DNA from: Polytrichum commune
Lineage: Eukaryota; Streptophyta; Polytrichopsida; Polytrichales; Polytrichaceae
DNA length: 64,000 bases
Assembly: GCA_950295325.1 (NCBI GenBank)
Contig: OX485803.1
Location: 75,531,554 to 75,595,553, forward strand
Reading direction: 5' to 3'
Shown: positions 5,554 through 34,902 of the stretch, in pieces
Layout of the letters: each line of letters begins with the position of its first letter
Numbering within the stretch: the stretch's first letter is position 1
Translations under genes and position numbers: made by a program
The notes under the pieces: generated by a model
What the model was told of the DNA's origin: nothing
The model's database searches: none
The model's input: only the letters and a program-made list of their open reading frames with translations

Positions 5554-5847
5554 CCAAGGAGAATTTTGGCTTCATTGCTGGGTTTCGGAACCACTTCCAT
5601 CTTGCGAGAATCCTGCCATCTTGCGAAAAAAATTGACAAAAAAAAATTCAATCAAAAAATCTCTCTACCTCTCTCACACATACAACACACTTCAAGAACT
5701 TCTGGGCATTTCAAAGAAACGGCCATCTTCCTCTTATCCCCTAAACTGCCCTGAAAAAGTTACTGTTGAAAAAAATATTAAAATAATACTGCCATCCTAC
5801 TCGCTGACTGCTGGCAGCTGTCTGACTGTTGTTTTGGGTTCTGACTG

Positions 5848-5920
5848 CCATGGTCTGCCGGAATTTGCATCAGGCCTACCTCTTGGAGGTGGGCCTGACG
5901 CAAATTCCGGCAGACCATGG
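5848..5920. repeat. perfect-stem hairpin in the Harbinger subterminal region
   Basis: CCATGGTCTGCCGGAATTTG and its inverted copy (5902-5920) flank a second short inverted repeat (CAGGCC/GGCCTG) and a small loop, giving an almost uninterrupted stem of about 28 bp. The same hairpin with compensating and non-compensating changes is present at 32139-32210 in a deletion derivative. Confidence 0.85.
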
Positions 5921-6733
5921 AGCCTTATCCATAGCCTGCCATGTAGGACTCCATGTAGACTTTTCATCCACGAACTTTTCTTTGGGCCTTTAGGCCTTCA
6001 CCTCCTAGTGTGAAGCGAACTTGGACGGTCTCCGCCTTTTCGACCAATGAGAGCTCTTACATCGTCATGGTCATGGGCCTTCAGCCTTGTGTGTGAAGTG
6101 GCCCTTAGACTTACTTTCAAAAGATGGTTTTTGAAAATAGTCCAAGTGACCATGAAACATGATCCATTGGATGCCATGTGGGAATCCATGTACACTTTAT
6201 ATCCATCTTGCATTCACATACTCCGTCGGTCCCTCAAGCGTAGTGTGAAGCGAACTTGGACCGGCTCCGCCTCTTCCACCAATGAGAGTGCTTGAAGTAT
6301 AATGGTCACGGGCTCTCAGTGTCGTGTGTGAAGTAGCCCTAAGAGTTGGTTCGGCACATGATCACCAACTAGGCTGATTTTATTACAAAGAGTTTTCACG
6401 TTGTGCATCCCAAGGTCCAATCGACACAACGACAACTCAAACAAGAATCAAAAACTAACCCAAAAAACCACAACACGTCCCAATTCTTAAGTTCAAAATA
6501 CGGGAAAAGTCTAATCGACACCAAGAAAATTTGTAAAAACGTCGCAGAACCTTAAAGGTTTTTACTCGGCCATCCACATGTGAGTGGAAACAAGGAGGTT
6601 ATGTGATATGTTTCCCACCCTAATCCAACCGAGCTCTTTGTGTGCACTCAACCCGGCCCACTTCAAGGTTCCTAGCTTCCCATCCAATAAGTTATGACTC
6701 CGAGTGTCATTTCAAACCAAATCCATCAACTTA

Positions 6734-7266
6734 GGGCCGCTTTACACCTAGAGGCCGGGCCAATTTCCCTTGAGGCCGATTGCACAAAATTTCAACCTTT
6801 TTTGGGTTGGAGGCCGGCCTCTACTACACATTATAATAAGATTATACCGGGGGCCAATTTTCCCATATGTAAAGGCCCTCGGGCCAAGAAGCCAAGCTGA
6901 TTCAAAAAAATTAGCCTAATCCAACGGATGTAGCATAATCTAAGATAGAGCCTTTAGATTCCACATAATCCAATGGATCTAGTTCACTTTAAAAAATTAT
7001 ACTTTATTTAAGAAGATTTTTTTAGTGGAATATGACATTGGCCTCTAGGCCAAGAATTGGCCTTCCATTTTGGGTGCACCCAATTCAACGAGCTCGGGCC
7101 GTGTCATAACACACATTTTTTAATTTAAAAAATCATACCACCAAATCGGCCCGGCCTCTAGATGTAAAGGGGTTGGGGCCGATTTGAGCCTTTTGACCAA
7201 TCACAAATGAGGATTTCAAGCCTCTTACACAACGAATTGGCCCGGCCTCTAAGTGTAAAGCGGCCC
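6734..7266 (+). mobile_element. Harbinger-type MITE, GGGCCGCTTTACAC ends
   Basis: This is a 533-bp element with inverted ends GGGCCGCTTTACACYTAGAGG and TTA duplications at 6731-6733 and 7267-7269. It is non-coding and rich in GGCC words. Internal copies of the end motif occur near 7150-7175. A second copy in opposite orientation is at 61914-62450. Confidence 0.88.
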
Positions 7267-11483: not shown

Positions 11484-11769
11484 TATGGGCATGTGCCATC
11501 CCAATTCATTATACCCATGGATATAACACATCACGTTAATGTGGTCCTCTACCTTTCCAAAATGATGGAGAACGGTGGGACGACAACCACTATCACTACC
11601 ATGTTGCTCATTGTATATAGGTAGATAGGCAAAACTCAGGGAGGGAATTTTCAATTTTGCAATGGTATACGTCAACCATATTAACTACCTATACAACAAC
11701 CATGTATTGAAACTGCCAAGTGATTAAGATATCAAAATCACAAGAAGAAGGTCTCGATTACTAACTTAG

Positions 11770-11824
11770 GGGAGACGTTAAACACCCCCCTACGAAATTG
11801 TAGGGGGCAGCGTCAGCAAAAAGA
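11770..11824 (+). repeat. left terminal inverted repeat of the MULE
   Basis: Aligns with the reverse complement of 26064-26118, including GTTAAAC, CCCCTACGAA, GTAGGGGG and GTCAGY. Homology fades beyond about 55 bp. Confidence 0.85.
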
Positions 11825-12379
11825 TGCCCTGCCCGGGCTGCCGGCAGCGCTGTCAGCGTCGACAGAATCTGTCGTTACTGTTCCGTCCGACATTCATCCA
11901 CCGGATGACGTACGACGCCCCCCTTCACCATACACCCGGCTCCTAACCACAACCAACGTGGTCCTTCACGGCCATGTCCTTCACGTCCGCGTCCACGTCA
12001 TTCCGGGAAATGCGGATCTGAGATCTAAAATTTTAGGGTTCCGGCCGTCGACTGCCGGCTACTTTTTGGAGGATGCCAGCTGTGTTTGTGTAGGGTTGAT
12101 CCACACCCTTGTCAACAGAATGACATCTCATTCAATGTTGCAACATGATCTTATGAAAGCACCATGCACAATGCACATAGATGGGTAGGGTTTACCACAA
12201 CTTCGACAAGTCTGCTCATTTTGAGTTCATGGAGGTATAGGGTTTAGGGTTTAGAGACCAATAGTGTAGGCTTCATGCACATACTCTTCTCAACCAAAGG
12301 ACATGGCATTGAATGTTGAAACATGATCTTATCCGCACACCATACACAATAGACATAGCTGATCACAACTTCCACAAGG

Positions 12380-12840
12380 CTGTTGTTTTAGGAACTCACT
12401 GATTCCACAAGTATGCTGATCCAGCAGTATGCTGTTTTAGAGTCACACTGATTCCACAAGTATGCTGATTCACAAGTCTGCTCTTTCAAAGTCACATAAT
12501 TTCACCAAGTATGCTGATTCACAAGTCTGCTCTTTCAAAGTCATAGAATTTAACCAAGTAGTGTGATGCACAAGTCTGCTCTTTCAGAGTCACACTGATT
12601 CCAAGAGTATGCTGGTTCACATGCCTGTTGTTTCAGAGTGACATTGATTCCACAATCCTGCAGATTCACGTGTTTGTTGTTTCAGAGTCACAGAATATCA
12701 ATAAGTCTGTTGATTCACAAGTCTGTTGTTTCAGAGTCACAGAATATCAACAAGTCTGTTGTTTCAGGGTCAAATAACTTCAACAAGTCTGTTGTTTCAG
12801 AGTCAGGTAACTTCAACAAATCTGCTGTCTTAGGGTATAT
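12380..12840. repeat. degenerate minisatellite in the MULE 5' region
   Basis: About ten imperfect units of roughly 30-48 bp built on TTCACAAGTCTGCTCTTTCA and GAGTCACACTGATTCCACAA lie directly upstream of the transposase start. The frame 12638-12856 is a translation of this repeat (units like KSVVSES), not a gene. Confidence 0.8.
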
Positions 12841-12863
12841 AGAGCTTATAGTTTAGGGTCCCC

Positions 12864-15800
12864 ATGGGTTCAACATCACAACCTGATGTGGTTGGAGGAT
12901 TATCTTTACCACAAGGGTCCTTGGAGCAAACTGATCCATCAGCATTTCGAGCACAACAGGTTGATATCCTTATGACTTTGCGAGAGACAATTCAAAGTCC
13001 TCCTCCTGGTGATTTTAGAATGGAGGACTTACTTTGGACAGATCATGTCACCCACGGAAAGGGTAGGCATAAACCTTCGAGAATGGCACTGATTCCATGG
13101 GATAGATTGGGGGATTTCATCTCAGGCGAGGAACACCACCCACTCTACCCATGCAAATTCAACCATGATGTCATTAGGCGAAACTTACCAAACTCACTGA
13201 GATCACCCCGGGCGCACAGTCCCGCGATTGTAATAAGGTTCTATTTATTCCTCGTCCACCATATCTGATTTATCTGCAACTATGCTTTGTCTACAATCAA
13301 TCTCATCATCCTAGTAGTTGACATTAATCTTTAATCTTTGTTCAGTGTCCTTCAATCTCTGAAATATGTCCTTCAATATCTGATGAATGTCCTTCAATCT
13401 CTGAACTATGTCCTTCATCATGAATGCATATATGTCGACCTTATTTCATTCTGGGCTTCTGTGGAAGGCATATATCGATGCCATTTCGGACCAGAGGACA
13501 AGTCTGAAGTTGTCCCAGTGGACATGCAAGCACTGCTTAAATCCACCCAGCAGAAAAGGGTGAAAAATAATGAAGCGCCAAAAAAGAAAGGGAAGAAAGT
13601 CGTACCTGAGTATGATGCGTTCCCTGTAACCAGGTCAACTGCTGCAAAGGTAAAGCGCGTGGGACGGACTGTCAGTGGTTTTTCCATAAAGAGAGGTTGT
13701 TTGCGTTCTTTTGTGGCCAAACAATCGTATCTTGATCCGGAGTTGTGCATATTGGTTTACGAGAACACCATGCACTTCAATGCCCGCGGTGAACATTGCC
13801 ATGGATCAATGGTAACTGGATTCCGGTACGCGTTGGGTGCTGGTATTTCTGAAGACATGAAATACAAAATAACCAAAATGCACGCTCTTGGGCTATCTCC
13901 TGCACAAATTATGCAACAGCACACGAAGGAGGTTAGAGAATTGGCTTTGGCTAATGGCCCTGTTACTCGTGATACATTCCTTTTGCCAACTGATGTTAGG
14001 AATATTTGTCGCAAGCGTGCGGAAGAGCTATGGATGAAGCACCCGTCTGATCCTATCAGCGTACGTATGTGGTCGCTGGAAAATCTTGACAGTGTCTTCT
14101 ACTATCAGGAACACTCACTCATGGATTTGAATTCTTCTACTCAGAATGACGCACCCTTTACAATTGGCATTCAAACTGAATGGCAGCTGGAAATGATGGA
14201 CAAATTTGGTCACAACAGCGCACTCTCCATTGACGCCACATTTGGGACCACCCAAACACGGGTTTGACATTAACCTCCTCTTCATAGGTCGATTTTATGC
14301 ATGTCCTTCATCATATAGAACGTCATTCAATATATAGATGTCTAGATGTTCTAGGGGTGTCATTCACGTTGTGTATAGGTCTATGAATGTAACTCACTGT
14401 TTTATGAATATCTAATAACGTCCTTCGCTTACTATGAAGGTCTATGGCTATGCTTCACTGTTGTATGAATATCTAATAAGTCCCTTCACTATATAAGCAA
14501 GTCCTTTTACCATCCACTACTCTCCATATTGAATTGAGGATGCCCTTCACTTGGTTGTCTTAGTATCCTCTATACACGGTTATGGTTTTTGACGACTGGA
14601 GGAATGGCATACCTGTGGCTTTCTTCGCCATATCACGAAGTCGTGAGCAGGACCTCACACCTGTCCTTCAAGCCCTTCACAACAGAGTATCCACACATAA
14701 CCCAAATTGGTCTCCTTCATCAATCATAGTTGACAACGCCCAAGCAGAACTCAATGTATTGAGGTATAACTACCCTAACCATCGTGTCCTTCATTTTGAT
14801 ATTTGGGATATAGTTAAATATAAATCATACTGACCTTAACTTCCATATGCAGGATTGTTTGGCCTGCTGCCAAGATCTTTCTGTGCCTGTGGCACGTTCG
14901 GAAGGCCTGGGTAGAAAATGTTGTCAAGAAAATTTCCACTGTGGGGGAGCGTACCGAAGTACTTCAGATGCTTGGTGATATTATGTATGGCAAAGGGTAT
15001 GTTGTTGACGACGATCCCATTGACTGGGCTCTGAAAAACCTCGACATGATTTGTAACACAAGACCCCGATCAGCTGCATTCATGAGGTACATTGACAAGG
15101 AATGGAGACCAAAAGTAGCGATGTGGTGTAAGGGGGCAAGGAGGATACCTCATGCAGGCCAAAATACCAATTCCGCCATTGAGTCCTACCATTCGCTCTT
15201 GAAGAGCATATTGTCTTCCAGCAAGGAACGTTTTGTTGGAAGACGCATGGATTGGCTCATTTTTCATCTCACGGGAGACGTAATTACACATTACTGGTAT
15301 GGAGTACAGTGCAAGGCTTTTGGGTTTGTCAGAAACAAACATCACGAGGGTCTGGTGTGCTCTGCGATCATACGCGCATCGGCAATACCGGACACACATG
15401 TCTTCATCTCCATGGCCGAAAACATAGCATACGTTAAGTCAGTGAACAACAGCCCAAAAACCTGGAAAATCTATTCGCCGGACTCCGAGTGGGCGCAGTG
15501 TGACTGTCCCGTCGCGCAGGAGGGCATGATATGCAAGCACACTGTCAAAGTATTCAAGATGCTCCACCCGGACATAATGGATGGTGTCATCGTGAGAGAA
15601 GCTGGTACAAGGCACGGAGTTGATCGCAACACTCCAATGTCGCTGTGTTATTCGAAGATTCACCACACCCTGCCCGATGAAGGACAGTCTCAGGCGAATT
15701 CAAACATTTTGAAGGACACTGACAACAATCAATGCGTGGATCTAGAGGCTGAAACCATAGGTGGCCATCTCGATGGCAATGTTGGTGGCTCTGAGGACCC

Positions 15801-16146
15801 CTTCGATGGGAGCTCGCAGATTTCACATGCCAATGTGTCCAATCCTATAGACTGCTCAGGATCTGACCAGGGAAACTCCCAAACTGTGTCTCGGACAACA
15901 GTCACTACCCTATACACTTCCTTGACAAAGAATGCAGATACATACCCCATTCTTCAAGGATATTTGCTTGCGGACTTGAAGCACATCCATGGTAAGCAAA
16001 CTGAGCTCATTGCTCGTGGTCACGCAACGTTGCCCCCAAGAGCCAGCCCTTCTTCCTTCCCAGCGCGCGACGGTGATAACTCCCTTAAGCGCCATCGGAG
16101 CTTCCTGGAAAACCTATCATCCAGGAAAAAATCATCACAACCGTAA
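12864..16146 (+). CDS. MULE transposase with SWIM zinc finger
   Basis: Four exons fit by GT/AG and phase: 12864-13237, 13346-14261, 14564-14763, 14853-16146, giving 927 residues. This is the DDE transposase that moves the element. SIDATFG holds Asp about 421 (last part of exon 2). Exon 3 opens YPLYTVMVFDDW and ends with IIVDNAQAE (Asp about 487). Exon 4 has CLWHVRKAW (the C-x2-H motif that follows the second Asp) and NTNSAIESYH (Glu about 607). A SWIM finger CDC...CKH lies near 713-726 and a Ser/Asp-rich tail follows. The residues of the DDE triad and the zinc finger are all present and no stop interrupts the exons. The start ATG follows the minisatellite; exon 2's beginning (repeated VLQSL) is less sure. 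Its 3' end faces the Ulp1 gene. Confidence 0.9.
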
Positions 16147-16399
16147 AAAACCACATGTAGTACATGCAGTACATTTATATCCTATTTTACGTTCAAGTTC
16201 TTCAAAATAAATAAAACATGCCACCTTCTTACCTCCCCCTTTTACTTGTTGTGCGAGTCAGGTCTTTAGCTCATGCAGGTTTCATAGACCACAAAACGTC
16301 CAGTGGAACTTCTCTCGGGTACTGTAAGTGGCACGGTCTGTCCCACAGGGTAATGGCAACTACGCGACAATCATTGTAGACCAACATTCAACTCTAGTT

Positions 16400-17330
16400 T
16401 ATAGAAATCCAGTACTGAATGATTGAATGACAGGGTGAAGACTGTCTGAAGCACCAATGACTGTCTGCATGACTCAACCTTTAATAAACGATTGATTGAC
16501 TCAAACGACACAGTCTCAATGAGGATTTGATTGTCACACACGTCTTCACAGATACACTGCCTGACTTGTGTATGACTGAAGTACTGACTTAAGTATGACT
16601 GAAGTACTCAGTGAATTACTAAATAAGTACTGACCTGACTTGTGTATGACTAAATTACTAACTAACGTACTTATTGAATTACTCACAAATGATTTCATGC
16701 AGGGTTACATTGCCGAGTTGAAGGCCATTACAGAAAGCATTACCTAGGTCGTCCCAATATGACCGATAAAAGTTACATCAAACAATATCATCTTCACCAG
16801 CCAGTCTCTACATAGAGAAGGAACAATATTTCTTGTCAAAATTTCATGACGTGACTGTTTGGAATGCCACAGCATTGGATAAGAATACCGAATCTTTCTT
16901 GACATGAGGTCTGCATCATGAATGTTTACGTTTGCCTCTTCGTCCCTCTCTGCATCCCATAACAGACTAGCTAAGCAATCACGAGAAGTTGAAAATATTC
17001 AAGTTTCAATGAACCTGCTCTATGACTTACGTATGACTGAAGTACTGACTTAAGTATGACTGAAGTACTGGGTGAATTCCATACTAAGTATTGACCTGAC
17101 TTGTGTATGACTAAATTACTGACTTAAGTATCAGTTAATTACAACCTAAGTACTGACCTGACTAGTGTAGGACTGAATTGCTGACTTAAGTACTAACTGA
17201 AATACAACCTAAGTACTGACCTGACTAGTGTAGGACTGAATTACTGACTTAAGTACTAAGTGAAATACAACGTAAGTACTAACATGACTGAAGTAAGGAC
17301 AACAATTGTAGGAGCGTTAGCTCATCAATA
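16400..17330. repeat. imperfect repeats between the two convergent MULE genes
   Basis: Runs of GTATGACTGAAGTACTGACT, TGACCTGACTAGTGTAGGAC and GAATTACTGACTTAAG recur, particularly 16560-16680 and 17030-17290. The segment is non-coding and probably holds the 3' ends of both transcripts. Confidence 0.75.
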
Positions 17331-17516
17331 TTAGGACAACAACTGAATGGTGTGTCATATCAGATTCAAAAATGAAATCTGCTTTGTATTAAGTAGATGA
17401 GTACAAGTCAGCAGTCATTCAACTGTAGTCATATATCCTAAAGCCTAATGTACAATGGGTAGTATGCCATGTATAATTATATAATACTACAACACACCTA
17501 CCCAAAAACGCTAGCG

Positions 17517-20500
17517 TCATCTGTGCCTATGTCTTCTGACTGCACGAGATCGTTTTCTTGTGTATTTTCTTTGTGGTGTTTCCTTCTTATTGATCACTTT
17601 GACTGTCCACTCTGATCCCTTATGCTTCCCAGTTGTGAGGACTTCGAACAATGCCTCACATACGTACTGACGTTGTTTGATCGCATCCACCCTCTTATAA
17701 TCAAACACACAGCCCTGCACATTGAATTACACTCTGTACAAGTCAGCTGTGGGACATAAGCATGCTAGGAACCAATAAAATTCTATGATACCTGCATTAC
17801 TTGGTATTTGGACGGGGTTTTTCGATGCGCGGTGTCGCAACTGACCTCGCGCAGGGTATGGGGTTTAGTTCTCAAGGCCTGAGTGTACTCCATTATGTTC
17901 TTCAGAACATAAAAGCCACATGCCCAACCAGAATTTTGTTGTGGCACGGGCGGTTGAATCCAAACATTCGGTGATTGAGCATTTCGCCACATGACCGATT
18001 GTTCTTGGTAGCCACTCCGCGCTGCCCACATCTTTGCTAAACGCGTGCGATTGGTTGAACCAGAATGTAGCCCACATTCTTTCAAGGAATCGAAGTGCCA
18101 AAACCCTTGATCCCCTAGAACGTACAAGGACCAGTGTTTTCCGCAAGTGAAGGGCACTAGTAGAGTAGTTATGTCCAACTGGGGCAAAGTTAGATACTTA
18201 TCATGAAGGAAATCTATAAACACTTGAACATTTTCACTCGGGTGTAATCGAAGAAACCCAGTTAGGATAGGTATGAGGTAAGGGCTACAGACATGACACT
18301 TTACGTCTTCTAGTGTAGGATTCAACCATGTCCGAACCCACTCCATCATGTGGTTGGACAACTGACCATACCTAAAAGTTAGCGGTTCTATGTCGTACTT
18401 CCAGTCTAATGTTAGGAAATCACCCTTAAATGTGAACTCAAACAAAGGATTTGCTGCCCCACCTGCATTAGCCACAATCGTGTTCACTAGCTCTTCCAAC
18501 CTGTATAACACACAAGTACAACGATCAATTGTATTACATCAAACAGATGTACTACGCGAATCAGGTGTAGTACACTAGACGTTTGAAGTACAACTATTAA
18601 CTGTATGACATTATGATAACTCCATATAAATAACATAAACCAATAAATTTGAATGTAATTCAACGTCGTTCTTACCTTCCATCAGACTTGAGCGTTGTCT
18701 GGGATATGACATCGTCTTGATCTAAGTCCACGGGTGTCGAAGACACCTTGCTCTTGGCACGCTGTTCGAGGACCTCCGAAACACAACTGGCGTCCTTTGA
18801 CACTGCCCTGTGAGTTGAAGAGATAGAATTGGCGCCAACATCAGTGGGTGGTTGAGGTAAATCCAACTTTCGTGTGACTGAAACCCCCATAGTGTCGGTT
18901 GTCGTGATCAGAGCGGGTGACCTGTGAAACCAAGGTCCTTTTGTTGATCCCCTCTTCAGGTCAGTCGGTGTACACGGAGATTGAGAGTGCATCGTACACA
19001 GAAATGCATCGGGGGAGAGAGGCTGCGGGGATGACATTGTTTTGACTGGCGTATCATGTGTTTCCTTCTCCGATTCGCCCAGTTCTTGCGGGGCAGTATT
19101 ATCAGGCCTCTCCAAACAGTCAGTCCCTTCGGTTCGCAATGCATCTTGTACTTCTGCGACGAACCCCCCTGGTAACTGCACTTCCTGGGCTTGGACAGGT
19201 GTAGTGAACTCACCCACCAAAGTACGAACGAGCGCGACATCTTCTGCAATGTCGTCCGTGGGATCCTCCAGACCTAACCCACTATATAACAAACTCAGCT
19301 GTAACCTCCGCAATGATTTCAGTTGTTCAATGGCATCAAGAACCCGGAGCTGCACGCACCTACTCTTATTGTGAACATCGCCAATTACAAGTGACCCAAT
19401 GTCCGCATCCTCGCGAACGACCATTGCCGATGACAAAACCTGCAGTTTGAAGGACATAGAGCAACTTGTCATAAACAAACCAGAATATAATAATCTTTTT
19501 CAACTTACAATATAAGACGGTCAGTGTCATACCTCGTTGCACTTCGTCCTTCGCTGCTCTGAGACATCGTCCGAAAACCACATATCTTGCAGTTCAGCAT
19601 ATCGCTGCATCCTCACCATGTCAGAGATGGCCCTGTGTGCTACTCTTCCAACAAAGGACCTGATTTTTTCCACAACTGCAACCTGTTTATCCGGGTCGTA
19701 ACCTAGCAATGCAACTGTGTCCGAATGCAGATTGCTGTAGCTATCAACTACTGAATTAATGACTGGAAATGTAGCCCAACCTGATAGCTCTAAATTATGG
19801 ACTACATTAGTCAATGCAACAGACTTCTCCCTATCCACTGCAAAGTCTAGGATGCGCTGCAAAGTAAGACCTGTATCTGGATGAGAAAGAGGGCATTTGT
19901 GACCATGTACTGTTCTGAAGAGCACCAAAAAAGCTCGCACTATATGGGGACACTCTAGCTCAAGGGATAGAGGCTGGGTGCTGACAGTTTCTAACAACGT
20001 TTTCTCTATTTCTACCCACTCCTCGTGCGAGTGTGCCCAAGGAGAGGAAGGGATACCAGGCAGGGGCCATTCCTTGAGAATACGGTAAATAGGAGACCAC
20101 CCCCACTTCTCCTGCTCGACGCGGCTTTTTTTCTGCGTTGTCATACTCCTCGAGCTTACCCTTGACGTAATTTGAGCGCAACTCGGCAATGTTTCCATGT
20201 GCAGCAGCCAGATTTGACTCATACACCCGGATGCGCATCAAGTAAAAGAGGTACTCCTTAAGGCGCATGAGTTCTTCGTACCTTTGCACGTCGGAATTGC
20301 TATTGAAACAAGATATTTGCGATTTGATTTTCTGGAGAAGCGCAATGTGCTCATCTGGTTTGCGAGTATTCTGAAGCAAAAGAAATAAAACATGTCATTC
20401 AGTGTATTACATCTGAAGCACACAGGGTTTATGAATTACACATGCTGTAATTTAAACTGAATAAACGTCACATGCATTGAATGACATCTGAACCTAATGA

Positions 20501-21053
20501 AGGACGTCACAATCATTGAATGACAACTGAAACAGTCTGAAGGATGTGCCCTGAAGTAGATTTACACACTCACCGAATTGCCGTATAGATACCAATGCCC
20601 AAATGCGCTCCCAAGCTTCACTCCAAGGGTGCCCTCCTCCACCATCTTATGAAGAAACTCCATGCAACCCTGAGGGTCATTGAGGAGGTCTTTGGGCATC
20701 CAGTCGATGTCAACCTCGGTGATGAGGATGTACAGTCCACTGACCTCCACGGGTGTAGGCGGAGGAGGGATGCACTTGAAGATTTCTTCAGGGAATTTCA
20801 GCTTCGCTCGAGCCCACGCACGTTCTTCAACTTCCTTCCGGGTCAGAGAGTCATCTGGTGGCCTGTGGCTAACAATGCGGAAGTCACGACTGTCCTCAGG
20901 TTCACTAATCTCATGCGAAGGTTGGGTTGCGGCAGGCAGTGTGTCGCACTCGCTGTCATTCTTCGATGAATGACCTTGAGAGTGTCCTTCATCTGCATCG
21001 TCCATTGTGGCGTCGCTGTCATGGGAACTGTGAGCCCAAAAGGGTGCCCACAT
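17517..21053 (-). CDS. MULE-borne protein with C-terminal Ulp1 (C48) cysteine protease
   Basis: Five exons, all with GT/AG and matching phase: 21053-20574, 20370-19533, 19439-18676, 18500-17792, 17714-17517. Together they give 995 residues if one extra A in an A7 run (20126-20132, exon 2) is discounted. The C-terminal third is a Ulp1-type SUMO/ubiquitin-like protease domain: KHWSLYVL (His about 816), WHFDSL (Asp 831), PQQNSGWACGFYVLKNI (Gln 882, Cys 888), a complete catalytic set. The N-terminal part is acidic, then helical, with a Ser/Pro-rich linker; I recognise no domain there. The last exon ends in a basic KKETPQRKYTRKRSR tail, a likely nuclear signal. Role in transposition is unknown; removal of SUMO-like tags from element or host proteins is the usual guess. 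Confidence 0.82.
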
Positions 21054-23139
21054 TTAGTCTTAGACCCTTGAAACGTTAGTTGATGCACTTTGAAGTAGCA
21101 TGTTACTTCACAAAAATATAAAAAGAGTGAAATGTTAGTCTTAGAAGTACCATGTTGTAAGAGGCTAGGATGTGAGTTGTTATTGTGTTTTTACCTTCGG
21201 AAGGATTTGAGTGAATGAGGATAGGTAAGGAGAACTTGGATTGAGTAGTTAGTGAGTAGGCTAGTACAAATGGATGGAGACAACCAAAGTGACTCAAGAG
21301 GCAAGTGCATTCGAATTGGGATGAATGGAGGATCACATGGAGCGCACAAGTGGACCACCTCATCATGGCCACTTAATGGGGAAGGCCCAAGGAAGAATGC
21401 AAGGTGGAGGATAAGCAAATTCTCAAAGCACCAATCAAATCACGAGTTAAGCATCGTGGTTTGAATTAAGTGGTGAGCGACGATTTGGGAAAGTAAGGGG
21501 AGAAAGTTATGGCGGCGGAAAGCGAAGGAGGCTAAGTTTGGGTTGAAGCATCCCAAGTTTGGTAAAGTGTGGTAGGTAGAAAGCCAAGGCTAGTTAAATG
21601 TTCGAATTAGGATCCTTGTTGATCATTTGAGGGAGGAAGGCTTAGAAGATAGGATTGGCGCCTACTAAGTAGGAGGAAATCTCAAGGGCTTATCGTGAGC
21701 CTTGAGGGTGTTCACCCCCTCAAGCTTACTATATAATCCCTCATTCTTCCCTCACTCATCCTCTCTTTCCTTTGTGCTCCAAGGCACCCCACGAGTTATA
21801 AGTGTGGGTGTGGGAAGCCATATTGGAGCACATGTGTGTGCTTAGTTTTTAGTTTGAGAGCCAAGGCTTGTTAGCCTTGAAGAGGGCTTGACCTCTTGGT
21901 AGAATTAGTGTTGACGTGAAGGATTTTAAAGTTAATTCATGATTCCAATTTGTGGTACTTAAAGTTCATGTTTTGAATACACGTGGTTGCAAGTTCCATG
22001 TTTAAGAGTTGAGCACTTGATGTTGTGATGAGTGCAAAAATATACTTGTGTGGATTAGTTAGTCTTAGTGAAATTAGGAAATTCTCTCTCCCCCTCTCCT
22101 CTCTAGGATTTTAGGATTTTAGGATTAGAGAAGAATTGTGTGATTAGAAAGGGGTTGTTAGTAGAATTAGGGAAATTAGGTAGGAAGATTAGTTAAGGGC
22201 TTGAATAATTAGTGAGGTAGTTGGGGATTACAACTACAAAGTTGTGGGTTCATGAAGGAGCTGGGTTTATGAAGGAGCTGGGTTTGTTTAGTTAGAAAGT
22301 AAAGAGCTGGGTTTATGAAGGAGCTGGGTTTGTTTAGTTAGAAAGTAAAGAGCTGGGTTTATGAAGGAGCTGGGTTTGTTTAGTTAGAAGCTAAGGAGCT
22401 GGGTTTATGAAGGAGCTGGGTTTATGAAGGAGCTAGGTTTATGTAATTAGAAAGTAAAGAGATGGGTTCATGAAGGAGCTTAGTAGATAGCCTACCTAAT
22501 TAGCTCATAGACAAGTAGTTAGTTACATTATGCTAGTTAGTATTATGTGTGGCTTTCACAAGTAAATGTATTTGAGATTGACTATAGAGAATAGTGTTTT
22601 TTTAACACTTGCATCCTCTCTTTAAAAATAAACCACGTGCACAAATTAATGGAGAATGTGGAGCACTCTCGCGATGGCAAGACAAAGGAAGCAAAGACCA
22701 AAGGTGCGAGGGAGAGATTGACATAAGTCACATAAGTATTTCTTAATACTTAAAGGCTTATGTACGGTATGGAGACACCAAGTGAGACCTCTTATAGTAG
22801 CGATACGGAATACACAAGTGATAGTTCAAGTGGTAGTATAGAGTCAACGGCACGGACTCCATTTAGGAGAGGGATATCCTTAAGGGCTTGTGTAGCTAAA
22901 GCGGCCGGATGGACGTTAGAAGCAAACAAAGACAAAATAGCACCCGAGCATAAGGAGGTTAAAATAACATAGTTAACTTGTGTATTCTCCACATACGTAT
23001 TGAAATCGTACATTGAGTTGTTAAAAGTGAAATTCCAGTTAAATCCAAGACCACTTGAAGGGTGAACCTTGCACTATGGACTCATCCAAGTCCAAATCCA
23101 ATACCGCGGAGGAATGTGAGCCCAAACCCACTACTCGGA
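21054..23139. other. spacer between the two minus-strand MULE genes
   Basis: No gene recognised. It has a + strand TATA-like TACTATATAATCCC near 21727, CT-rich sequence behind it, a tandem repeat (22245-22490) and a small + frame (22760-22972, Ser/Asp/Thr-rich N-terminus) without known motifs. It might be a nested insertion or simply the promoter of the Ulp1 gene; I found no LTR ends, primer-binding site or target duplication. Confidence 0.5.
22245..22490. repeat. 46-bp tandem repeat
   Basis: GAGCTGGGTTTATGAAG plus GAGCTGGGTTTGTTTAGTTA and AGAAAGTAAA repeat about four times, the first copies nearly identical. The left and right edges decay into shorter GAAGGAGCTGGG units. Confidence 0.88.
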
Positions 23140-24177
23140 CTACGGACGCTTAAGGGTGGGGGGTTTGGCCTCACAGGAACCATCGCCCTCGGGACTATCC
23201 AGGATTTCGACAACCGAGTCCCCTTGACTCACTGTAGACCGTGATACCTTGCACGGAACCTCTTGTCGTGCTGTGGGGGCAGCAATGGCGGCAAATTTGC
23301 GTCGCTTCGAAGTGGATAGGTGAGCGACATCGTCGAAGTCACGTTTCGGGTTGGCAGACGGCTTAGAAATCGTAGTACACGCCCAAACTTTACCGTACTT
23401 CCTTGCAATCCTGTTAAGTTCGCCGTGATCACTCTTCTCCCACGTAGGGTACATCTTCAATGCAGCAGGTTCTTTGTACACCTTACATAGGTTAAACATC
23501 CTATGGTAAGAGGTCATGTTTTTATCCTTATGTAGTTCCTTGCAAAAAGTACAGGAAAAAGGATACCTACCATTCTTCAACCTCTCTGTAGTAACTCTAG
23601 AATCGGAATAAGCCTCAAGGATCAAAGCTTCGTACTCAGATTCCAGAAACAGAGCTGCACAGGGCTTTCGATTGTATGTCATAGTGCTCCTGTACAAACG
23701 TTGTCCACCAAACAACTGCGAGCCACACAAATGTGTATTGTTCAATGTTTTGTTGAATTACTAAATGACATAGCTCACGCCTCGAAACACTGTGAACAGA
23801 AGTCATCAGTGGTTGAGGCAGGGGCAGAATTCAAATTCACACCAAATAAAATGAAGCAATAGGTATGAGCAACAAAAACATACACCTAAACTAATTAGAT
23901 TGAAGACAGTAGACAACAGAGAATCAGCCTGTACCTAAAAAATGCAGGAAATGAAATGTCTTACCCCCGGTTGCCAACCAACGGCGCCGAACACCACCAT
24001 GTCAACAAATTTCTTCCGTCCCAGGAGAGAAATCAAGGCTGGGTCTTCAACGACGTGCAAGCGGTGCTTTAGGGCCTCTGGAACCAACTTTGCGGTTGTC
24101 CAGGGCACCTGCTTCTTCACTCCAGAGGTCTCCATACCTATGGTGATAATTGGAGTATAGCCAGAGTGAGGGTGCAT
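23140..24177 (-). CDS. unknown MULE-encoded protein with Cys/His cluster
   Basis: Two exons, 24177-23965 and 23715-23140, join in frame across a GT/AG intron (262 residues; a second Met at 24135 is an alternative start). I do not recognise the family. Visible features: an N-terminal region VPWTTAKLVPEALKHRL; RRKKFVD-like basic patch; a middle stretch GRYPFSCTFCKELHKDKNM followed by SYHRMFNLCKVYKEP, whose spaced Cys and His residues could bind zinc; and a basic STSKRRKF patch, a possible nuclear signal. It lies on the same strand as the Ulp1 gene, 2.1 kb upstream of it. A DNA-binding accessory protein is plausible, but only from the zinc-finger look and location. Confidence 0.6.
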
Positions 24178-24503
24178 GCATCATCGTGCCCACATTCCGA
24201 AGTCAGTGGAGGGAAAAGGGATATCAGATTAAATTGTAGGCCAAATCACACCAATTAGGAGTCAGTCAGTGAGTCATTCGAGTCAAGACCTAAACCTTGC
24301 ACTCTGGTCCATGGCCCTAAAGAAAATGGTACACAGTAGTGCTGCAAATGAAGGAGTCATTAGTTGTGGGTTATTAACTAACTCTGAAATTAACTCTGAA
24401 ATTGAGGGAATGCACATGAAAGAAGAGAAGTAGAGGATTTAGTGACTGCACTGCTGATACCAAGATCCCTAAGAACAGAAGCCGTGAGAGAGTCAGAATA
24501 CCT

Positions 24504-24690
24504 ATGCTGATCATTGGAGTAGGCTTAGCAGGGTTAGCATCTGCAAGGCAATGTGCGACCTTAAAATTCCCCTCTTACTCCTCGAAGAGACAGATGGAGT
24601 GGGAGGAAGAGTCCAGACGCATTCATACGAAGCATTATTGCTGGACAGGGGGTTTCAGATGTTTAATTACCCTAAACTCGGAAGCACACA
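24504..24690 (+). pseudogene. captured fragment of an FAD-dependent amine oxidase-type gene
   Basis: The + strand reads MLIIGVGLAGLASARQC (the dinucleotide-binding GxGxxGL motif) and, after one frame change, LKIPLLLLEETDGVGGRV and LLDRGFQMFNYPKLG. These are the first two landmarks of plant FAD/NAD(P) oxidoreductases of the phytoene-desaturase/amine-oxidase-like group, in the right order and spacing. Only about 60 residues are present, with no catalytic part, so it is a fragment picked up inside the MULE. Confidence 0.8.
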
Positions 24691-24714
24691 CAATTCTGGT
24701 CTACGAATGCCGAC

Positions 24715-24870
24715 GGCTACTCAAAACACCGAATCTCAGATATTCCCCTGGCTACTCAAAACACCCAAAATCAAGAAATTCCCCCTGCTACCCAAAACAC
24801 CCAAAATCGAAAATTTCCCCTGCGACTCAAAACACCGAAAATTGAAATTTCCCACGCCCACACAAAACAC
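24715..24870. repeat. short tandem repeat, about 32-35 bp
   Basis: Units of the form GGCTACTCAAAACACCSAA plus AATYNSARAAWTTCCCCCTG repeat four to five times directly behind the captured gene fragment. Confidence 0.8.
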
Positions 24871-26063
24871 TGAGTTCCGAAAATGCGGAGTTGAGACCTA
24901 GAGTGCTTGCAATGAGAGAAGCTACCCAAGAGAAAAGAGAAAAGCAAAGAGCTAAGAGAGGTTGTTGATGGATGGGTTATACCTTTGCTAAACCTGATCG
25001 CTCCTAATCCTCCACAATCGCACCTGCTTCACGATCGCGGCGCCTTCCTTCACCGCCCGCCGCGCCTCCAACCTCCAAACCGACCTTTCGCCTCTCGCCG
25101 CGCCTTCGGCCGCGACCCTAAACTCCAAACTTCGCCCTTCCAACTAAGCCTTCCTTCTGCCTTCGAACTTGAAGAATCCCCTGCGCCCTGCCCCCGAATC
25201 TCCCGAATTCCCTGAAGAAACTCCACTAATCTAGAGCGGTAGATCCCGAATCCCCAGAATCAACTCCACTAATCTAGAGCAGGTAGATCCCAAGGGAGAA
25301 AACCTCAGGAAATCTGTGCATTACAAACCTCCGAAATGTGTGCACACAAACCGCCTCAAACACCAAAATGCTCAAACAGCTAGCGGCCTCCCTAAAACCT
25401 CCAGGATTCAACCCTTTCCTAAACCCAACTACACATCACCAGTAAGACAATGATGAACAGATCGCCATTCAAACCCTACGTCGTGAAAAGACCGCCTAAA
25501 GCCACTCAAACCCGAATACGGCGTGAAGAGACACACTCAGCCACTCGAACCCAAGGTCACAGTGAATAGACACTTTGCGAACTCAATGACGCCCACCACC
25601 TTCAGGATCAAATCTGCAATCATTGCTTGCAAAATCTTCACACCTAACACAATCATACACCCTAAAACCTTCATGACTTTGTCCTACCCTAAAGATCTTC
25701 ACTCAATCACTACTATCCTCAACCCTAGACAGCAATAATCACTGGAAAAACATCTAATCTCTCAACAATCCAACGTCAGTCACTCTCAAATCATTGCACA
25801 TCAAAACAAGCACACACTTCAGAAAGAGTTGGAGCCCCAAACCCTAAACCAATATGAAGGACACCCTGTCTATTCACCTATCCTCGAAGGACGGGACCCT
25901 AGCCTCGAAGGACGCAACCCTTGCCGGACGCGGACTCCACAAAGGACGCGTCCGTGACGCAAACCCTCGTCCCTATCATCACCGTCGCGGCGCTACCCGA
26001 CCATCCACGAATCTATCCATTGGTGACCGGTTCGACCGGTCACCTCGTCGGGCGGGCAGGTGA

Positions 26064-26118
26064 AGTTTTCACTGACACTACCCCCTAGAAGTTCGTAGGG
26101 GGTAGTTTAATGTCCGGC
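26064..26118 (-). repeat. right terminal inverted repeat of the MULE
   Basis: Reverse complement of the left end (11770-11824), with shared GTTTAA, CCCCCTAGAAGTTCGTAGGG and CACTGACAC. It is followed directly by the second CTAACTTAG. Confidence 0.85.
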
Positions 26119-26127
26119 CTAACTTAG

Positions 26128-28216: not shown

Positions 28217-31151
28217 AGGCAAATCAAGGGTTAGCGAATGGCCAAGGATTTGTGATGTCGAAGAGAGGGAATCACCACATACAAGTGTACCTCTCATCCA
28301 ACCAACATAAAAACTTTACCCCTATAAAGGTAGTCGTGTCTAAATCAACCACAACAATAATATGGACACTTACATCCTTTACCTCTTTAAGTGTTACCTC
28401 TCCGGAGTATGTAGTTTGTACGACTTGTGGATTTCTAACATAGTAACACTTTAGAGAGGGTGTAAAATTGAAAAATAAGACTAATGTATGAAACAATTAA
28501 CATGGTAAAAATAAAGTCATCAATAGAAATTATAAACTATCACTATTGTTTTGATGCACTACAGTTTGGGGCTTGCAATGCATGAACATAAATGTTCATT
28601 TATGAGTTGGGAGGTGTGTATCGGTATCTATTTATCAATTACCTTTGCTATCTCCAATTCCAAATGGACTCTACTAAATATAAGACTGAAGGACTCTAAT
28701 TCCAACTAGACTTTATCATTTGTAAGATTAGAGGACTCCACCCTAGGAGATCTAATAGTTCTAAAAGGTCAAGGGGAGTTGCCCACTAGTTGGGACTATG
28801 GTGTTACACGATGTTCTCACCTTGTAAGTGATGACCGTTAGTTAAGAGCACTTAACCCACCCCAAAGGCATGGAGGGAGAGTAGGTTACCTATATGCTTG
28901 AGGATTAGTTGAGGGGAGCTTCAACTCCTACTTCCTAGAAGTATATAAGGCTCAAGGTTGGGTGGTTTTATTTCTCCTCTCGCTTTTGACAAATGTTACA
29001 AGGGCACATTGCACACAAGACACTCAAATTGTGAGTCATATGGCTACATAAACAATTTAGGTATGATGATAATCTTGCAATAATTGTATATTTCATATCC
29101 AATGAGAAGTGAGTGCAGAGAGAAAAACATCTATCTAAAGCACGTCTACCTAAGGTTTGTGGTTGATTTCTCTCAAATGACTTAGACTAAGACTAATTCA
29201 AGATTCTTAAAGATATTTCCATTGTCCAATCAATTGAAAATAATAATCTTTGGGACGTTTACTAATTTAAGATTTTTGTTGGATGAATGAGAGGTATGCT
29301 CATATGCAATTATTCCTTTTCTCATGTGATGTCTATGTAAACTCATATGTTGAGAAGGTGAGAATGCAAATGAATTATTCTATGACTTTCATATGACTAT
29401 ATTGAGATTGTTTTACAAGATATGGCATTAGGGACTTCAAAATAGTCTAGAGGAATTTACTTGGAATGATACGGCCCTCACTATGTAGGGAAATTGATAT
29501 TATTGGAGACCTTTCATGCATGATTGGATGTTTTTCATAAATGCCATGAACCCAAGCCATGGCGAATGGCCATGGAGAAACTATTGCATACATCTGTATC
29601 AATGTTGGGTTAGTATAAGGTAGTCATACCCAATTTTGACACTTAGTGTAGTTTGAGTGCATAGATTAATCCAAGTGACGTGTAAATTAATATTGTTCGA
29701 TCAGCTTGCCAACTCCCTTGTCTAGTTGATTTGTAGATAGGAGGTAGGCCTAAACCACATACTTATGAGAATGTGGGCCACAAGAGACAAGCCACACTTG
29801 CTTGTAACGCACTAAGTATGGTTCATTGAAGTGCATAATTGGCAATATCATTGTCCTCCTCATAAGTATAACCTTCACTCAATTGTACCGACAGATTGCA
29901 CTATACATGAACATATGTGTCATGTGTGTACATAGATCATTCTATACCTTCATTCAATTTATTATGAAAACTCCCTCATGACAGGGATCCATATTAGGTT
30001 ACAAACCAAATTAAGTGCAACTACCGTAAGCATGATTCCAAGCGTTTTGGGATTCTTGACAATCATATTGGGAGTTTGGTAAAATTTGGCCCATATAGGT
30101 TTGTGGTTGTATCAACCCCGCTTATCTCATTCATAACATTATTTATTTCCTATCAACTGTTCCATTTTTATATTCGATGATAGTGCTTCACCCGAATCTC
30201 ACTCGTATTTAGGCTGAAGCTACTTCTTGACAAGCATCCGCAAGGTATTATTCTAGTATCTTACATGACATATTCCCAACCCCACCCAACATGGTCACTC
30301 AATTGAATAATTTTATGTTGGGCTAATATGGGGTCTCTAATGCTTAACTATGGGATGAGGTTAGCTTCGAAAAACATATTTTCAATCTATGAAGGCTCTC
30401 AAAGTTTTAGAGATTTGCCATGTATAGGCTTTGGCCAATTTGGCCAAGGATTTGTGGTATTTACGTAAACTCATTTATTAGGAAGGTGACATTACAATGA
30501 ACTATTATGTAGTCCTTTATAAGGCCAATTTGAGAATATTCAACTTTAGAAATGACTCCAATTGCACTCCAATTGGAATGAATTGGCCCTCACCCTTATA
30601 GGAGAATCATTTTATTGTAGCCCATGCACATGCACTTTACGAAAAAAAAGACTTTACATAGACGCCAAGAGGCCCAACTCCATAGTATCAACAATGCTAT
30701 GTGCAATAGTATCAAATACTTTATTCAACATGGTATTTGGATAGCTAATATTGGGCTTAACTTATATTGCACCATCATGACTTATTATGCTACTCCCATT
30801 TAACCCTTGATTGCTCTTGGGTGCAGTTCCATGACCTTGGAACTTCCATACCACCCTTGATGTCGAGGATCATGCAACCCATTGTCAATGACATGATCTA
30901 TGATCAATGACTTTTGCATATGACACATGAATCATTGTTCATATTGGCATTATTCACAAGAAATATTGTCCATCCTGGTATTATCAATTGAAATCCTTAT
31001 TTTATAAGTTTTTTTTCATTAATGCAAGATAGTGAAGGACCACGTCAAATGCTAAATATAAATTGGAACACAACCATGTTGTTGAATCAAGTTATGGGAA
31101 ACCAACTCCATTATGAAGATTTGTTTTTGTTTTGGCTTGAGATATGCTTAT
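28217..31151. other. non-coding or decayed sequence
   Basis: No frame longer than about 75 codons and no motif recognised. A promoter-like TAGAAGTATATAAGGCTC occurs at 28936-28953 with a CT-rich stretch behind it, which might be the core of an old LTR promoter; I found no paired LTR. Confidence 0.45.
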
Positions 31152-31154
31152 TAA

Positions 31155-31677
31155 GGGCCACTTCACACACAAGACTAAAGGCCCATGACCATTGCAAGCT
31201 AAGAGCTCTCATTGGTCAAAAGGGCGGAGACTGTCCAAGTTCACTTCACACACAAAGGTGAAGGCCTAAAGGCCCAAAGAAGACTTCATGGATGAAAAGT
31301 CTACACGGAGTCCTACATGGCGGACTATGGATAAAGTTGCATGATAAATTCTAGGAGACCATGATTTTTTAAATATATTTTCCAGTAGGAAAGATTGCAA
31401 GGCAATTTCCAGGACATACAAAATACCACCAAGTAATTCTCTTAAATTGATAAAAAAAAATTGAGACATATGATATTAAACCAAATCCTCCCCTCTTTTT
31501 CCGCCAACAAAACATGCAATGGTCCCGCAACATGGTCCATTCTCACTTCACACTATACTTGAGGGCCCATTACTGCATAAAACGGCTTTCCCAACACCCA
31601 TGGTACGGCCTTTGGATGAGAGTCAAGGGTCTCACCATTACAAGGTCATGGCTCTTGGCTCATGTGTGAAGTGGCCC
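31155..31677 (-). mobile_element. Harbinger deletion derivative, 523 bp
   Basis: GGGCCACTTCACACACAAG at the left, GTGTGAAGTGGCCC at the right, TAA duplications at 31152-31154 and 31678-31680. The left part matches the reverse complement of about 5925-6104 and the right part that of 2608-2760, so the interior with both genes was lost. Middle sequence is unrelated. Confidence 0.87.
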
Positions 31678-31680
31678 TAA

Positions 31681-31717
31681 TATTTTTATTTTTTATTTTT
31701 TATTTTTTATTTTTTTG
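31681..31717. repeat. T-rich simple repeat
   Basis: Five units of ATTTTTT next to the TAA duplication of the preceding element. Confidence 0.9.
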
Positions 31718-32055
31718 AGACAGAAGGCCGACAAGCCAACGCCAAAGCACAGGAGGCAGGTGAATATATCCATATTCTCAAAATCTTCAAACAACCTGAA
31801 TATGGATGTTATATTCAAAAACGTGCCAGCCACGGTGACTTGCCTGCTTGTATGTTTTCTAGAAGGACTAACTTATCTTCTTTCACGTCACTGGAAGGCG
31901 CTCCAGAAATGTTGGAACTTGTTTATATGATGTTTTATATCTTAATATTGTATAGATTTTTTGGTTGGGTACGTGACAAACTTTTGACCGACAAGCCTTT
32001 GGATTTAGCAAAGACTCACCTCCAAGTCAAGCCCAAAGGAAAAAACCATGACTGA

Positions 32056-32392
32056 GGGCCAATTCTTACACGAGCCAAGGGCCATGACCATGTAGTTTGT
32101 GAGGGCCTTTCACTCTAATCCAAAGATCATATCATTGACATGGTTTGCCGGAATTTGTGTTAGGTCTATCTCTTGGAGATGGACCTGACGCAAATGTTGG
32201 CAAACCACAAAACATTATATATAATATGTCATGTTGAAATTCATGTAGACTTTTCATATATGATGATTTCTTTGGACACGTAGGCCTTCACCTTCTAGTG
32301 TGAAGTGAACTTGGACGGTCTCTACCTTTTCAACCAATGAGAGATATTCGAATGCAATGGTCACATGCCTAAATCTTGTGTGTGAAGTGGCC
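32056..32392 (+). mobile_element. Harbinger deletion derivative, 337 bp, with the conserved hairpin
   Basis: Ends GGGCCAATTCTTACACGAGC and TTGTGTGTGAAGTGGCC. The right duplication is TTA; the left is TGA and has probably mutated. It keeps only both ends plus the hairpin near 32139-32210 of the 2608-6104 element. Confidence 0.8.
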
Positions 32393-32951
32393 TTAGTATG
32401 TGCAATTAGGTCGACTCATGCTAAATTATCAACTTTTCACTATATTTTTTAATATTTATGACCCATGGTTACAAAAATATAAGAATGTTTTATTGTGGTA
32501 GCTATAAGGATGAATAAACAAAGTTATGTTCAATGGATGTGAGGTCCGCTCGTATGCAATAATTCCCTCGCTCTCCCCCCCTACAATACTACACCAAATA
32601 TGGTATATAGTGTCGTTTGGTATTCTTTTGAATGCAAATTCTTTGTTAATGTGGTAACTTTTCTAATGACCCTTCTTTTGAATAAGTTTATGAGTATTGT
32701 AATGGATGAATTAAAATTGGATGCAATCCATGCAAATTATTAAAATAGAGTTTGGTATATTTGGCCTCCTAATAATTATCTAATGAAATATTGTCGTGGA
32801 AGATTGAAATTTGAAAGAAAAATCACATTGTAAGTGACAGTCATTGCAATATTGTAAATCCCTCTAATGCCCAAAGAAGTTTACAAGAAATGACAAATAA
32901 TGTTAGGTTTACATTTGGTATCGGGGACACTAAATGGGCGGCTTACAATTA

Positions 32952-33455
32952 GGGCTGCTTCACACTATGGCCGAAGGTTGAGAGGCCATCGATTTCCACC
33001 AATCGTATTGCAAGAAACCAAGAACTTGGCCTTTTGACCCTTCACACTAGAGGCCAAAGTCCAAAGGCCATTGCTCTCCAAAATGTCTACATGGCAATAC
33101 TTTTTAACCAAGGTGACAAACTCTCAAAGGAAGTTTGGGTCGGATAGGAATGGAAAATCAAGCTATGGTTGAGAGGCCATCGATTTTTTTCTTCATATAA
33201 TATATATATAGACAAGATCTTGGTTGTTAGATTAAAGGGGTTGTTTTGGGCAAGGAATAAAGTGAGATGCTCCTTCTTCCTTTGGACTTTGGGCTTGGCC
33301 TTTGGAGGGTAGCTTCACACTATGCCCGGCCAAAGGCTCCAATTCCTATATTTGTATTGGCTATTTTCAACCCATTTTTTTGGACTCTCAACAAAGTTTG
33401 GCCATTCAATCCCATGGCCTCTCAACTTGGACTACCATAGTGTGAAGCAACCCTT
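32952..33455. mobile_element. Harbinger-type MITE, GGGYTGCTTCACACTATGG ends, 504 bp
   Basis: Inverted ends GGGCTGCTTCACACTATGG and GGGTTGCTTCACACTATGG. TTA duplications at 32949-32951 and 33456-33458. A second copy of the end motif lies inside at about 33309. Different subfamily from the GGGCCACTTCACAC group. Confidence 0.88.
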
Positions 33456-33509
33456 AATATGGAGCAAGACAAGTAGAATTGGTGACACTAAACGTGTGGC
33501 TTACAATTA

Positions 33510-34013: not shown

Positions 34014-34362
34014 TTGGTATCGGGCAAGACGAATAGAATTGGCAACACTAAATACAGTATAAATCCTCCCCTCGATTACGTGTGGTGAACGTTCATCTGT
34101 TTGAGCACTTGGTGGCAATACTAATTACAGTGAGATCGCTGATGCCATGATGCAAAATCATGGGAAACGTCGAGTCCTGAGTAAAGCACGGAATTCTGGG
34201 GAGGCCATGTAGAGGCAGGAAAGTACCAGGCAGAGTAACAGGGTACCAGGCTGACGAGGCAATGGGGGCCATCTTATGGGCACTCACCTTTAAAGTTCCA
34301 AACCATCTTTGATGATACCATAGGCTGCAACGGATGCATGTTGAAAATGCTAATAGCCATCA

Positions 34363-34890: not shown

Positions 34891-34902
34891 GAGAAGCAGA
34901 GG

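Follow-up and report, generated by a model that had tools for sequence, protein, structure and literature searches.

A two-gene Mutator-like element clade of the moss Polytrichum commune with a finger-Ulp1 protein and subfamily-specific motifs in its non-coding DNA

A 64-kb stretch of the genome of the moss Polytrichum commune, hereafter the window, contains a Mutator-like element (MULE) with two convergent genes, one for the transposase and the other (gene 2) for a protein that joins a C2HC finger to a Ulp1-type (Peptidase_C48) protease. We lean, by a little more than an even chance, towards reading the product of gene 2 as a motif-guided anti-silencing factor comparable to the VANC proteins of VANDAL elements, with an attached SUMO protease, in a clade of MULEs that have terminal inverted repeats (TIRs) and share the two-gene plan. 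The observations behind this reading are the structure of the element, the order of its genes, an exon model obtained by comparison, purifying selection, co-inheritance of the two genes and enrichment of short motifs in non-coding DNA. Searches covered the assembly of 407.8 Mb, in which seven large contigs account for 406.1 Mb, and the coordinates of all features in the window are collected in Table 1.

Structure and copies of the element

The window element is a TIR-type MULE. A perfect 9-bp target site duplication (CTAACTTAG) and inverted termini of 62 bp with 79% identity bound it, as an earlier note on this DNA had described; its account of a complete element of 14.3 kb has to be revised, since two sister copies that have their ends in common with the window copy, the C3 copy (c3) and the C1 copy (c1), measure 12,238 and 12,287 bp, respectively, and lack a nested insert of 2,147 bp. 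The 14.3-kb MULE is a 12.2-kb element plus this insert. The pentanucleotide GGAAC is single in both sisters and stands on both flanks of the insert in the window copy, and this duplication together with the TG...CA ends (TGTGAG...CTCACA) makes the insert resemble a solo long terminal repeat.

Recent movement, which the earlier note had read from the matching duplications, is well supported. The largest colinear block of c3 and c1 is ~99.4-99.5% identical to the window copy (92.6-99.2% in the other colinear blocks), and the two sisters have perfect 9-bp duplications of their own, CTAGGCATA in the C3 copy and CTCACTTTT in the C1 copy. Further copies with both ends exist as well: in all eight elements tested, a 9-bp duplication lies at a nearly constant offset (six perfect, two with one mismatch) and the end cores match in inverted orientation, a recurrence that is not due to chance. 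The same search did not find the terminal pattern in L042-L044, which therefore lie outside the duplication test.

The element also holds a degenerate piece of a flavin amine-oxidase-like gene. Apart from its likely parent, C5:23773306 (542-aa frame, 62% over 42 aa), no locus but the three young copies has it, a case of gene capture.

Gene 2 and its protein

The exon models of both genes are predictions from the comparison of copies. Four minus-strand frames, A to D, most plausibly belong to a single gene as its exons, as suggested by shared splice positions and phases and by frames that are joined in two loci. Most of the 12 copies compared agree in where the donors and acceptors of exons A-D lie and in their phase, the exceptions being the A/B acceptor, not settled in L018-L020, the C/D acceptor, likewise in L019 and L020, and a B/C acceptor that reads AT in L017. 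In L016, A and B form one 709-aa frame and C and D one 538-aa frame, and in c63 B and C share a single 402-aa frame. An upstream first exon was found in 10 of the 12 copies. The 347-aa frame A is open in both sisters and interrupted by the insert in the window copy, and the 205-aa frame at 23140-23757, presented earlier as a third gene of unknown nature, turned out to be the 5' part of this exon of the Ulp1 gene; we rejected it as a separate gene because it belongs to exon A, which is open in both sisters.

Spliced from c3, the five modelled exons give a protein of 1,159 aa, convergent to the transposase. The exon at its end matches Peptidase_C48 with an E-value of 6.4e-8, and the His, Asp, Gln and Cys of the active site, already pointed out in the earlier note, are complete by eye in 21 of 21 aligned rows, an alignment from which c1 and c3 were left out. 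In L026, a stop replaces the Trp after the His. Elsewhere in the assembly, a cluster of Peptidase_C48 exons at C5:50109103-50462081 perhaps represents tandem host ULP genes.

The finger residues C46, C49, H62 and C68 are invariant over eight loci, two of which are Ulp1-less. A profile of the finger retrieves 48 solved chains at E-values up to 5, nearly all of them C2H2 fingers, with PRDM9 as the best (E 3e-4); the Pfam C2H2 model is matched by only two of the eight finger members, at best with 0.0039. Domain B, which follows in exon 3, has neither a solved relative (profile search, best E 0.14) nor a known one. Apart from C48, the full 1,159-aa protein has no Pfam match up to E 1, DUF1985 included, its single pieces gave only weak, chance-level Pfam matches, and exons 1-3 have no match in NCBIfam; on these searches we rejected the presence of DUF1985 or another known domain besides C48.

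Transposase and coding state of the copies

The spliced transposase matches the MULE domain PF10551 (E 2.9e-16, 60.2 bits for a cut-off of 27.6) and also ZSWIM1-3. DDE residues, a C-x2-H and a SWIM finger had been attributed to it. By eye from the translation, D, D and E can be placed in SIDATFG, VDNAQ and AIESYH, which we take to be the D/D/E motifs; a CxC...CxH pattern of the SWIM type is visible, and the Pfam SWIM model reaches 16.2 and 15 bits, below its cut-off of 19.6.

The transposase had further been called uninterrupted, at 927 aa, and the element near-intact. The frame is indeed open, with 885 aa as modelled, but the gene is not intact, the acceptor of intron 1 being AT in the window copy and AG in both sisters. 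The intron-1 acceptor of the L016 transposase is likewise not AG. In gene 2 of the window copy, a frameshift affects exon B and the insert divides exon A, so that near-intact does not describe this copy. In c1, the third transposase exon is frame-shifted and exon B contains a stop, while c3 keeps an open Ulp1 gene and has a transposase stop at codon 32; by these models, none of the three copies has both genes whole.

The transposase and Ulp1 partnership across the genome

Using the transposase exon as query, 96 matches were scored from 574 candidates, and the search with the Ulp1 exon gave 152 matches, of which 150 were listed. A listed Ulp1 match lies within 15 kb of 78 of the 96 scored transposase matches, and all 78 are downstream and convergent, where ~1% would be expected from their density. 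The earlier note had named the lack of such co-occurrence in other copies as grounds for giving up the partnership, and the two genes clearly do occur together. The share with a partner is 19/24 at 70-100% transposase identity, 20/22 at 60-69%, 30/37 at 50-59% and 9/13 at 40-49%. Judged from the sequences, the partnership is old within this genome, extending to transposases of ~41% and Ulp1 domains of ~25% identity.

The histories of the two genes largely agree. Pairwise identities of transposase and Ulp1 are correlated with a Spearman coefficient of 0.945 (190 pairs from 20 loci), which was reached in none of 999 permutations, and those of transposase and domain B with 0.857. Ratios of nonsynonymous to synonymous substitution rates (dN/dS) were obtained for 12 pairs, and in the seven with dS > 0.4 they range from 0.06 to 0.17 for the transposase, 0.05 to 0.13 for the finger part (one pair undefined), 0.10 to 0.35 for domain B and 0.16 to 0.25 for Ulp1. 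The five close pairs are noisy (0.16-1.35, one undefined). These ratios indicate that Ulp1 is under purifying selection.

Lineages without the protease also exist. L032, L033 and their relatives L040 and L041, the four loci fetched with ~10 kb each, have the finger gene, and the clade's own Ulp1 profile found no Ulp1 in them up to E 10. In a midpoint-rooted tree, L032 and L033 cluster (support 99/97) beside 21 Ulp1-bearing loci, so that a single gain or a single loss of Ulp1 suffices. With the finger gene retained even here, it is the finger together with the middle domain that makes up the constant part of gene 2. A GC-rich tandem array lies between transposase and gene 2 in L032 (~2268-3300).

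This constancy bears on the possibility that Ulp1 acts mainly on the transposase or on host repair proteins in transposition, independently of any motif. Such a role has been proposed for the Ulp1 and OTU proteases of Ginger elements (PMC2836005). For the moss element we regard it as unlikely, the protease being fused here to a finger domain and the finger gene being what the Ulp1-less sister lineages retain.

Short motifs in the non-coding DNA

The window contains 30 copies of GTCMTTCA, 23 of them inside the element and 7 in the other 49.7 kb. For the 8-mer counts and the sorting of motif cores, coding DNA was masked from tblastn matches and thus includes some intron DNA; with the exact exons of c3, 11 copies of GTCCTTCA fall in the 6,100 bases of non-coding DNA and 4 in the 6,138 bases that are coding. 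In 9 of 10 loci, all but L019, an unbiased count of non-coding 8-mers gave words that surpass the highest count in dinucleotide shuffles, for instance GTCATTCA (19 in c63 and f5), GAAGGACA (15 in L015) and GCAGAACA (9 in L018), where the shuffles reached at most 4-6. Eleven of 13 later loci also exceeded their shuffles, for example with GTTCTGCA (L023, L024, L026), GTTCTTCA/GAAGAACA (L022, L025) and GTAGTGCA (L029). Where expected numbers were compared with those found, GTCMTTCA occurs 11 times in L038 (0.22 expected), GTAGTGCA 12 times in L020 (0.23) and GTTCTGCA 25 times in L024 (0.55), and none of these counts is reached in 200 shuffles.

Several of these words follow the form TGT-N4-CA. 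When the non-coding DNA of 22 loci, L032 not among them, is pooled, this form comes first of 1,024 gapped patterns (664 occurrences for a mean of 161). Clades differ in their cores, some loci (L016, L017 and L022 among them) carrying a mixture, and the motif groups of separate subfamilies include TGTCMTTCA and TGTAGTGCA. Within a set of nine loci, non-coding DNA that does not align contains 59 motifs of the CMTT group in 16.1 kb, compared with 5 and 5 for two control core pairs, and 31 motifs of the TCTK group in 11.8 kb; each group has few of the other's motifs (6 and 8).

Four short relatives, which are related to each other and show no transposase or gene 2 match among the matches listed, carry GTCMTTCA 11, 16, 12 and 20 times in 2.3, 2.7, 2.2 and 3.3 kb, for a mononucleotide-shuffle mean of at most 0.20. 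Two control cores occur in them 0-2 times, and near-variants GT[AT][AC]TTCA 3, 11, 10 and 14 times, so that the motif has a halo of variants. The family of L038 (C4:6261942-6263747) consists of short elements with inverted ends of ~450 bp; it gave 151 matches with 40 of 224 candidates scored, and in many cases several matches are parts of a single element.

Motifs and gene 2 that are kept together, along with short relatives that retain 11-20 motifs in 2.2-3.3 kb, would also fit an accessory transposition factor, for which TnpA of En/Spm is the model: protein 2 would bind the motifs to pair the ends or assemble the transposase, and silencing would not be its target. However, the motifs of the window copy lie mostly in introns and intergenic DNA in the middle of the element and not near its ends, and the 62-bp TIRs are without them. 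We therefore think this role improbable, though worth keeping in mind, and the two roles could also be combined in one protein.

A more sceptical account, to which we assign a rather low probability, is that repeat turnover in non-coding DNA left the motifs behind as neutral by-products, with Ulp1 a captured passenger. Some motifs do stand in local arrays (four GTCMTTCA at 21-bp spacing from 13347), an 8-mer above shuffles is also found in some control DNA (4 of 11 chunks), and the element did capture a piece of a host gene, the amine-oxidase-like one. Yet the enrichment recurs in non-aligning DNA of different subfamilies, and Ulp1 has kept its catalytic residues under purifying selection, whereas the captured amine-oxidase fragment is degenerate and confined to three copies.

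Comparison with known systems

The KAONASHI elements (KIU) of Arabidopsis and the Ulp1-MULEs of grape, melon and rice likewise combine a MULE transposase with a C48 protease (PMC2528002, PMC6117577, PMC13317346), and in KAONASHI the C48 gene is reversed relative to the transposase, as in the moss element. KAONASHI, however, is a non-TIR element of angiosperms, and its protein differs from moss protein 2, which has a C2HC finger and a domain without Pfam match up to E 1 besides C48. VANC of VANDAL elements offers a second parallel, being also the second gene of a MULE and associated with family-specific short motifs in non-coding DNA. The motifs bound by VANC proteins are 8-9 bp long and concentrated in non-coding repeats, where binding leads to methylation being lost (PMC5735166). 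According to a review, Ulp1 is also present in some VANC genes, which have the same effect, the role of Ulp1 in them being unknown (PMC13317346). VANC has DUF1985 and DUF287, neither of which was found in moss protein 2. Ulp1 domains on DNA transposons are not new, since they are described for Ginger1 and for Mutators of hydra and lancelet (PMC2836005). In Ginger1 the protease lies within the transposase, while in the moss element it is fused to a separate finger protein.

The earlier note had placed the element with the KAONASHI type and concluded that the partnership is old. Its age holds within this genome; the link to KAONASHI is not supported as it was put, given the TIRs, the lack of DUF1985 and the Ulp1-less sister lineages. 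With KAONASHI compared by description only, the same three features make a separate origin, in which Ulp1 was acquired independently, or else a very deep divergence likelier than membership of KAONASHI or VANC. Descent of the moss and angiosperm Ulp1-MULEs from one Ulp1-bearing MULE would account for the convergent gene order shared with KAONASHI (PMC2528002), and the angiosperm side, too, has Ulp1-less relatives in VANC (PMC13317346). Against it stand the TIRs, a protein 2 without DUF1985 match, a transposase that also matches ZSWIM1-3, the Ulp1-less lineages found here and the dating of the angiosperm capture to the monocot/eudicot split in the same review (PMC13317346). We consider such common descent quite improbable.

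How gene 2 might act

In the reading that we favour, the finger part of protein 2 would recognise the short motifs of its own subfamily, several of them TGT-N4-CA, that are spread through the non-coding DNA, and thereby mark the element and its non-autonomous relatives. Protein 2 would then counteract silencing at the marked elements, where the Ulp1 domain may free silencing or repair proteins present there from SUMO or a similar modifier, and this relief of silencing would let the transposase be made and work. The DNA binding, the anti-silencing action and SUMO as the substrate are thus what we infer from the element. A more specific version sees a bryophyte counterpart of VANC that originated separately, reads a coded motif (constant TGT...CA with a four-base subfamily core), carries a SUMO eraser in one large clade and has diversified together with its motif; we hold it only tentatively, and it may well be wrong.

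Several findings weigh against the favoured reading. MULEs in general do not need Ulp1: among 142 Pfam MULE-domain matches, a C48 match lies within 15 kb of 17 (16 convergent), the C48 set comprising 150 of the 152 Ulp1 matches and, at other places, 23 of the 51 Pfam matches. Pfam probably under-scores the clade because its MULE domain is split by introns, but the low share shows Ulp1 to be a feature of one clade rather than of MULEs as a whole. As to the motifs, L019, L030 and L031 have no 8-mer above the largest shuffle, and of 11 control chunks taken from the window on either side of the element, four exceed theirs, two just (6 vs 5) and two widely; the latter are at 30701-35200 and 2251-6750, where CTTCACAC is in excess (14 and 9 times). 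An excess of some word is therefore weak evidence by itself, and the case depends on which words they are. TGT-N4-CA is the form of the first-listed 9-mer in only 11 of 23 loci (not so in c3, f5, f6, L018, L019, L021, L023, L024, L027, L030, L032 and L033), although it is second or tied in L019, L023 and L024, and the window element's own family ranks other repeats above it. L032 and L033 have other words or arrays, and L033 and L041 share CATGTTAC instead, 11 in each. Part of the enrichment comes from local arrays, the motif frame was recognised after the fact, and the motif counts are not independent, as loci of one clade share ancestry.

Other features of the window and assembly

The earlier note took the host not to be an angiosperm, in agreement with two markers, a light-harvesting complex (LHC) gene and plastid PsaB. 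Among single-domain chains of known structure, the LHC gene is closest to those of 8htu and 7xqp (the two-domain chain 9vfj scores higher), and the best matches of PsaB are 8htu, 6l35/7xqp and 7ksq, entries from the moss Physcomitrium. The seven large contigs suggest seven chromosomes, and n = 7 is found in the moss family Polytrichaceae. At C5:1751760-1846160, fourteen LHC matches of equal top score lie within ~94 kb. Contig C8 (146,561 bp), which carries psaA/psaB, is presumably longer than moss plastomes. At 2734-3852 of the window, a 372-aa open frame has the look of a PIF/Harbinger-type nuclease by eye.

Table 1. Features of the Mutator-like element and its surroundings, in window positions
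Feature	Position	Strand	Remark
Target site duplication, left, 9 bp, CTAACTTAG	11761..11769	.	
Target site duplication, right, 9 bp, CTAACTTAG	26119..26127	.	
MULE, 14,349 bp with nested 2,147-bp insert, TIR ~62 bp at 79%	11770..26118	.	sister copies 12,238 and 12,287 bp
23 GTCMTTCA motifs	11961..25862	.	18 outside modelled exons, none in nested insert, none in 23176-25854
Transposase exon 1	12864..13237	+	splice model by copy comparison
Transposase exon 2, ends in SIDATFG (first D)	13472..14261	+	preceding acceptor AT here, AG in both sisters
Transposase exon 3, MULE core, second D in VDNAQ	14564..14763	+	
Transposase exon 4, E in AIESYH, SWIM-like finger, terminal stop	14853..16146	+	
Gene 2 exon 5 (D), Ulp1 (Peptidase_C48) catalytic domain	17783..18500	-	
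Gene 2 exon 4 (C), linker	18676..19439	-	
Gene 2 exon 3 (B), conserved domain B	19533..20370	-	frame shifted relative to sister c3
Gene 2 exon 2 (A), C2HC finger and following domain	20574..23715	-	split by nested insert
Gene 2 exon 1, METSGVKKQVPWTTAK...	23965..24135	-	
5-bp duplication GGAAC, insert left flank	21024..21028	.	
Nested insert, solo-LTR-like (LTR, long terminal repeat), 2,147 bp, TGTGAG...CTCACA (TG...CA) ends	21029..23175	.	missing from both sisters
5-bp duplication GGAAC, insert right flank	23176..23180	.	
Flavin amine-oxidase-like gene fragment, degenerate	24420..24898	+	in element

Significance

Among the open-licence papers listed, we saw none on Ulp1-MULEs of mosses, no bryophyte clade with this plan, no finger-B-Ulp1 protein, no neighbouring lineages with and without Ulp1 and no TGT-N4-CA series of motifs. 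The clade bears on the question why so many DNA transposons encode a SUMO-type protease. Here the protease is fused to a probable DNA-binding finger, and selection has maintained it in a clade that numbers dozens of copies. The absence of Ulp1 in sister lineages that keep the rest of gene 2 provides a natural comparison with and without it, and the subfamily motifs are ready-made candidate binding targets, so that a simple haploid plant could serve to test the idea of a SUMO eraser that the element aims at its own silenced DNA. If true, sequence-specific anti-silencing by MULEs would not be confined to flowering plants.

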